A DNA stretch of 64,000 nucleotides from Providencia alcalifaciens (GTDB taxonomy: Bacteria > Pseudomonadota > Gammaproteobacteria > Enterobacterales > Enterobacteriaceae). This document shows, piece after piece, positions 22,767-22,887 of this stretch (positions within the stretch are counted from its first letter, which is position 1; each line of letters starts with the position of its first letter). Made by a program: the position numbers and the translations under genes. The notes beneath the pieces are model-generated. The model saw nothing but the letters and a program-made list of their open reading frames with translations. It was not told where the DNA came from and searched no databases. The stretch is from NCBI RefSeq assembly GCF_915403165.1, contig NZ_OU659204.1, forward strand, positions 124,001-188,000, read 5' to 3'.

Positions 22767-22838
22767 TTTATTTATTTATTTATTTATTTATTTATTTATT
22801 TATTTATTTATTTATTTATTTATTTATTTATTTATTTA
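22767..22838 (+). repeat. 18 perfect tandem copies of TTTA upstream of the operon 3 pilin gene
   Basis: Eighteen uninterrupted TTTA units (72 bases) begin 6 bases after the regulator stop codon and end 64 bases before the pilin ATG. This is where the pilin promoter or leader is expected. Perfect tetranucleotide tracts of this length are prone to slipped-strand mispairing, and in other bacteria such tracts switch surface genes on and off by changing promoter spacing. Confidence 0.98.
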
Positions 22839-22863
22839 AAACACATGTAATTGGTTATATGTG

Positions 22864-22887
22864 TATCTATATCTATATCTATATCTA
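22864..22887 (+). repeat. four tandem copies of TATCTA before the pilin start
   Basis: Four exact hexanucleotide copies lie 15 bases before the pilin ATG. They are open in the pilin frame and would encode Tyr-Leu repeats after a GTG at 22861, but the ATG at 22903 with GAGGA and a normal signal peptide is the better start. The tract therefore lies in the leader next to the ribosome binding site. Confidence 0.95.

Follow-up and report, generated by a model that had tools for sequence, protein, structure and literature searches.

A fimbrial operon of Providencia alcalifaciens carries 18 perfect copies of TTTA between the gene of a small regulator and the first pilin gene. This tract is a real, rare and lineage-specific repeat. 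Judging from the predicted anatomy of the locus, it probably sits inside the operon transcript; a promoter-spacing mechanism is not supported, and any function of the tract is putative. The window referred to below is the whole stretch of 64,000 nucleotides that was analysed (contig NZ_OU659204.1, positions 124,001 to 188,000), and coordinates are counted from its first base. The relevant features of the locus, in order along the forward strand, are as follows.

22321–22348, + strand: putative sigma70-type promoter of the operon, TTGATT-16-TATAAT (10/12 consensus positions; best site of the region)
22422–22760, + strand: gene of a small, MrpJ-like HTH regulator (112 aa; HTH_3, PF01381, E 2e-12)
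22767–22838, + strand: perfect (TTTA)18 tract (from the sequence, TRF and the comparison with P. rustigianii)
22841–22864, + strand: possible hairpin of 10 pairs, one of them G-U, 38 nt before the pilin ATG (seen in 6/14 loci)
22864–22888, + strand: TATCTA tract of 4.17 copies in the interval between the hairpin and the ribosome-binding site (from TRF and sequence comparison)
22894–22898, + strand: ribosome-binding site GAGGA (from the sequence; present in 8/8 aligned loci)
22903–23436, + strand: probable major pilin gene (Fimbrial, PF00419, E 1e-16; kept in relatives)
23461–23487, + strand: terminator-like stem-loop of 11 pairs, 3' of the pilin gene (mean in shuffles, 0.3)
23508–29586, + strand: rest of the fimbrial operon, i.e. 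minor pilin, usher, chaperone, pilin, MrpH_C-like adhesin and pilin (from Pfam)

The TTTA tract is 72 bases long. Directly upstream of it are the six bases CCGAAA, preceded by the TAA stop codon of the regulator gene (22758–22760). The end of the tract is separated from the pilin ATG at 22903 by 64 bases, and (TTTA)18 thus spans positions −136 to −65 relative to that codon. TRF reported the run as 22766–22838, with 18.2 copies and 100% matches. Four full copies of TATCTA occupy 22864–22887 and end six bases upstream of GAGGA. The whole spacer between the regulator and pilin genes is 85% A+T. An earlier, sequence-only reading of this DNA had placed both tracts here; its description of the TTTA tract proved exact to the base, and the four-copy TATCTA tract upstream of the pilin gene is also present. 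The locus shares with repeat-mediated contingency loci a long perfect simple repeat beyond chance.

The same reading had called the gene before the tract an MrpJ-like regulator and the gene after it a pilin gene. Pfam analysis bears out the latter, with its Fimbrial domain, and confirms that the former codes for a small HTH_3 regulator; the name MrpJ is given by analogy alone. The regulator matches HTH_3 and related HTH families only in Pfam. NCBIfam yields no better name for it than small HTH protein, all 13 of its matches there being below the cut-offs. It has a homologue with 90% amino acid identity in P. rustigianii. The pilin has, by eye, a signal-peptide-like N-terminus, and its label as the major pilin is deduced from its place as the first pilin gene. 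Among the downstream products, the usher passes the cut-off of NCBIfam NF011812 (1005.8 vs 972 bits), and the MrpH_C match of the adhesin-like protein is just under the Pfam cut-off.

The association of the two genes is shared with relatives. A pilin gene comes next in 14 of 16 close homologues of the regulator, one of these pilins being broken by an in-frame stop. The remaining two loci (L096 and L097) have no pilin frame within 500 bases downstream and were excluded from the 14 loci used below, for which the pilin starts used in the scan were checked to be ATG codons. The broken pilin is that of the orthologous operon of Providencia genome G016 (L077), with its in-frame stop after 53 codons. 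In addition, seven P. rettgeri plasmid records, out of 16 matching, show a regulator followed by a fimbrial protein, another fimbrial protein and an usher.

The operon has fimbrial-looking neighbours in the window. In each of three such gene sets, a small HTH-type regulator frame is found near the first pilin-like gene (20122–20583, 22422–22760 and 32341–32685); Pfam was used to check the regulators of the first two sets, and the third was judged by eye only. The long tract is present only in the middle set, that of 22422–22760. Upstream of the operon, 21114–21399 is a fragment of the gene at 29743–30282, with 89% identity to its 29743–30022 portion. Thus, the fimbrial operon is flanked by one partial and one whole copy of that gene, and the P. 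rustigianii stretch L064 matched the gene or its fragment at one place only. A decayed partial copy of a second gene, at 21398–21817, is 84% identical to the gene at 33554–34237. Within it, five perfect copies of TCAAAGCC, an 8-base unit, occupy 21594–21633; a search of P. rustigianii and P. rettgeri stretches (L064, L069 and L070) did not find this unit.

The (TTTA)18 tract is far beyond chance. Not one of 100 dinucleotide shuffles of the window contained (TTTA)4, and the longest tetranucleotide run in simulated 4-Mb sequences, one each at Markov orders 3 and 5, had 4.5 copies. Real sequence of the same genome gave a similar picture, with tetranucleotide runs of at most 3.25 copies in 40 sampled stretches of 20 kb (800 kb of 3.93 Mb). 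In the whole assembly, runs of at least six TTTA copies occur at one place only, which is this tract; repeat units other than TTTA were searched for in the window and in the 800-kb sample. The sole run in that sample, which excludes the window, with a 4–9-base unit and at least four copies is made of the 7-base unit CAGTTCG (4.7 copies; L170, 14294–14326). At the scale of the genus, runs of at least six TTTA copies were found in 4 of 24 Providencia genomes, at one place each, and at the scale of the order runs of at least nine copies were found in 6 of 394 Enterobacterales genomes, the genome under study being included in both counts.

Besides this tract, nine long TTTA tracts were found, three in Providencia and six in five other Enterobacterales genomes. 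None of them adjoins a recognised fimbrial gene, as judged by eye from the open frames in their flanks, with a family search for two L063 frames only; two of the six non-Providencia tracts (L133 and L134) are near contig ends. In L063, which belongs to Providencia genome G013, an (AAAT)14 run at 5032–5087 ends 28 bases upstream of an open frame in a type III effector-like locus. Intergenic hexanucleotide runs of the TATCTA type were also found in three Providencia genomes and one genome of another genus, with nine copies in L065, 12 in L066, seven in L067 and six in L068. By eye, the L065 run is located just past the last gene of a fimbrial set and the L067 run past a type IV pilus-like set, and those of L066 and L068 adjoin unrelated genes.

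A search of genome contigs provided two named relatives, P. rustigianii DSM 4541 and P. rettgeri YPR31. At the same places as in the window, the sister species P. rustigianii has 3.5 copies of TTTA instead of 18 and 2.17 copies of TATCTA instead of 4.17. P. rettgeri YPR31 and genome G010 harbour AT-rich repeats at the same place, with units of 15 bases (2.5 copies) and 14 bases (3 copies), and the spacers of L074 and L076, of the same group, contain no perfect repeat at the threshold used. Spacer lengths range from 76 to 142 bases across the window, P. rustigianii, YPR31, G010, L074 and L076. The long tract is absent from all 13 other regulator–pilin loci and from the seven plasmid records, and therefore the operon has no need of it. 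No other strains of the same species were found in the contig search, which may omit records very near the window's own. We infer from one assembly of the species that the simplest history is that of a lineage-specific microsatellite, grown through replication slippage out of a short TTTA seed in the spacer.

Such a history may have had no consequence for the fimbria. The chances seem only a little short of even that the tract is a neutral microsatellite, i.e. that the AT-rich spacer tolerates repeats, that slippage lengthened one of them, and that its copy number leaves the fimbria unaffected. We place this reading slightly above the functional one proposed below because the nine other tracts, the three of Providencia with at least six TTTA copies and the six of five other genomes, have no recognised fimbrial neighbour by eye, and because the 13 other loci and seven plasmid records are all free of a long tract. 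It fits less well with the fact that this is the sole long tetranucleotide run found in the genome and that it occupies a short spacer adjoining a surface gene. Nor does it readily account for the second tract of the same spacer, which likewise exceeds its counterpart in the sister species.

TTGATT-16-TATAAT, which scores highest among the promoter-like sites of the region, precedes the regulator gene, with 101 bases from its −35 element to the regulator ATG, and it ends 418 bases upstream of the tract. It is kept in 12 of the 14 loci, in the form TTGATT or TTGATA, a spacing of 16 or 17 bases and TATAAT in 10 of them, and as TTGATT-16-TATACT in the other two. The kept site starts 437–462 bases before the regulator gene ends; for the other loci, this consensus scan gives approximate distances to the start of that gene. 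L081 and L095 have no such site in this position. With eight promoter-like sites, the region as a whole is no richer in them than shuffles (mean 11.4). Within the spacer of the window, the consensus scan found no promoter-like site above 8/12. A promoter within this spacer is thus unlikely on such evidence, bearing in mind that a consensus scan may miss a weak site, such as a pilin promoter in the 64 bases after the tract. Since the best, conserved promoter-like site is about 420 bases upstream, before the regulator gene, the tract is most likely transcribed.

These data speak against the mechanism that the sequence-only reading had put forward, namely that the tract switches the pilin gene by changing promoter spacing. 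In a switch of the hif or nadA kind, the tract would be located in or upstream of the pilin gene's own promoter and its length would alter promoter activity. We consider this improbable here. Being AT-rich and 64 bases from the pilin ATG, the tract is within promoter reach, and the spacers of some relatives do contain better sites, at 9/12 in L073, L078, L079, L081, L083 and L095 and at 10/12 in L080 and, with 15-base spacing, in the seven plasmid records. The window's own spacer, in contrast, does not exceed 8/12, and the stronger, conserved site precedes the regulator. Four relatives near P. rettgeri share a weak 8/12 site, TATAAA-16-TATACT, which is not listed in the spacers of the window or of P. 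rustigianii. In hif-type systems, as described in PMC9820224, the tract is between the −35 and −10 elements; the consensus scan places no tract in the spacer of the 22321–22348 site. There is a likeness to nadA of Neisseria meningitidis, as the TAAA unit repeated before that adhesin gene is TTTA read on the other strand, and its copy number changes the transcript level (PMC2791445). The nadA repeats are upstream of the promoter, however, whereas here the conserved promoter-like site comes first and the TTTA tract follows some 420 bases later. Promoter spacing was dropped as the leading idea after the promoter scan and the 14-locus comparison. Thus, what stands of the proposal of slippage-controlled fimbriae is a slippage-type tract before the pilin gene, with a copy number that differs from that of the sister species, and not its promoter mechanism.

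The 10-pair hairpin before the pilin gene is located 26 nt upstream of the ATG in five relatives and 38 nt in the window, because of two extra hexamers (12 bases) in the latter. It is absent from the other eight of the 14 loci: L083 has a stem of seven pairs at 30 nt, L079, L080 and L082 have stems of seven to eight pairs elsewhere, and L077, L078, L081 and L095 have no pre-pilin stem of at least seven pairs. Some of the six loci with the hairpin carry other stems that are equally long or longer. The seven plasmid records have an 8-pair stem of different sequence, 28 nt before the pilin ATG. One double (compensatory) change is found among three distinct hairpin sequences. When G-U pairs were allowed, the hairpin was reached by 65 of 2000 shuffles for the window, 126 for G004, 116 for G015 and 454 and 400 for the plasmid types; without G-U pairs, the corresponding numbers were 1798, 17, 210, and 64 and 108, the longest stem of the window then being four pairs. 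A hairpin before the pilin gene is thus suggested by these sequences, and it appears weak relative to shuffles.

A stem of 10 pairs or more follows the pilin gene in 11 of the 14 loci. In the seven loci with alignable post-pilin stems, nine pairs are kept and there are three double changes, all in G018. The 216-nt leader as a whole folds poorly, as 183 of 200 shuffles fold at least as well. The exact RNase E motif RN↓WUU is not found inside the tract and occurs just at its 5' edge, and no known RNA family reached its gathering score in the whole window.

This order of elements resembles that of papBA of Escherichia coli, which has the regulator first, then a spacer, a hairpin, the pilin gene and a 3' structure. 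In that operon, RNase E cleaves the transcript 5' of a protective hairpin, the pilin messenger outlives that of the regulator, and a terminator is present at the 3' end (PMC5927463). By sequence, the Providencia operon likewise begins with a regulator gene preceded by a promoter-like site, and a stem-loop follows its pilin gene, with a putative protective role. Unlike papBA, it has an HTH_3 regulator and not a protein of the PapB family; thus, its mode of action may be that of pap even though it is not a pap operon. In further contrast to papBA, cleavage of its transcript is a presumption: transcription through the tract, RNase cleavage and any effect on pilin are all steps that we infer.

In the papBA-like scheme, which we propose as the model that fits this operon best, transcription would start about 420 bases upstream of the tract, before the HTH regulator gene. 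The tract would be copied into RNA as an AU-rich segment between the stop codon of the regulator and the small possible hairpin 5' of the pilin ribosome-binding site. A cut in this AU-rich spacer would give the pilin messenger a new 5' end, shielded by the hairpin, and the stem-loop after the pilin gene would protect its 3' end. The tract would be an addition to the spacer of a papBA-like operon; we know of no long repeat tract in pap itself. If copy number matters, its effect would be a graded one on the processing, stability or translation of the pilin messenger, rather than that of an on/off promoter switch.

A precedent is found in uspA2 of Moraxella catarrhalis, the AGAT tract of which lies within the transcribed leader. 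PMC7302503 gives 13, 14 and 18 AGAT copies in three strains, in a tract listed 132 bp upstream of this adhesin gene, and a graded effect on the messenger, of at most 3.37-fold in one strain. The tract described here is alike in being a tetranucleotide repeat in the range of about 13–18 copies, some 130 bp before a surface gene; a graded effect of the uspA2 kind is what would be expected, should there be one. In contrast, the uspA2 tract heads a single gene, and its variation and effect were measured, whereas the TTTA tract separates a regulator gene from a pilin gene, and its variation and effect are putative.

Among mechanisms, an effect of the leader tract on the handling of the pilin messenger is the most likely one, and the absence of any mechanism, i.e. 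a neutral tract, is slightly likelier. Accordingly graded, our confidence in the parts of this scheme is as follows. That a slippage-made leader tract would affect the handling of the pilin messenger to some degree is a tentative proposal, and that tract length has physiologically meaningful consequences is somewhat more doubtful. A full slippage-driven dial, in which the copy number of an untranslated repeat would set the cutting of a shared transcript and the lifetime of the pilin messenger and thereby cause graded, heritable variation of an Enterobacterales fimbria, post-transcriptionally and not through promoter inversion or Dam methylation, is rather unlikely.

Less probable still than a promoter switch is that the tract acts on the DNA as a scaffold, recruiting H-NS or IHF to silence or bend the operon DNA, with its length setting the strength. 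H-NS has affinity for AT-rich sequence such as this spacer, with its 85% A+T. The TAAA tract of nadA is a contact site for both IHF and the repressor NadR, but IHF binding was unchanged between six and nine copies (PMC2791445). Furthermore, the relatives keep the same operon without the tract, which argues against a scaffold role.

Attenuation of the kind described for pil1 of Streptococcus gallolyticus, where repeats alter the length of a translated leader and translation of this leader melts a terminator ahead of the pilin gene, is very improbable here. The order of parts does match, with a promoter, an open frame, a repeat, a stem-loop and the pilin gene; in pil1, GCAGA repeats are found between the promoter and the pilin gene and are followed by a stem-loop (PMC3894217). 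The pil1 repeats are translated, though, and its loop is a terminator, and neither feature was found here. The stop codon of the regulator gene is six bases before the tract, and no upstream ATG, GTG or TTG opens any frame through it. The hairpin is AU-rich and lacks a T-run, and the scan for terminator-like sites yielded none at that place. The tract cannot act by frameshift either, because it is downstream of the stop codon and no start codon is found in any frame crossing it. Attenuation and frameshift were thus rejected, no started frame crossing the tract.

The least probable explanation, that the copy number is an artefact of assembly or culture, draws on there being one assembly only and is opposed by a genome in two contigs with 99.87% completeness, by 72 bases of perfect repeat and by the seeds of both repeats in the sister species.

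DNA inversion was rejected, as the window has no tyrosine-recombinase gene. PF00589 has five matches in the genome and none in the window, the nearest at a distance of about 0.38 Mb, assuming a circular contig; unlike in fim and mrp, no site-specific recombinase gene is thus found beside the operon. The region 21800–22920 contains six inverted repeats, all imperfect (74–92% complementary). Like mrp of Proteus mirabilis, the operon has a transcription regulator of its own. However, mrpJ is the last gene of its operon and the mrp promoter is inverted by MrpI (PMC9820224), whereas here the regulator comes first.

Fimbrial switching in this group is best known as inversion and methylation (PMC9820224). 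Among the titles and abstract openings of the literature matches listed, none reported a repeat tract upstream of a fimbrial gene of Providencia. If the copy number of the tract is variable and relevant to pilin, the fimbriae of Providencia would be a case of post-transcriptional control by a tract made through slippage, new to a group in which inversion and methylation are the familiar switches. If the tract is neutral, it would exemplify that a tract beside a surface gene is, alone, no evidence of phase variation, because like tracts elsewhere in the genus and order adjoin no recognised fimbrial genes. Either way, the order of regulator, spacer, pilin and stem-loop provides a testable model of messenger handling in such operons.
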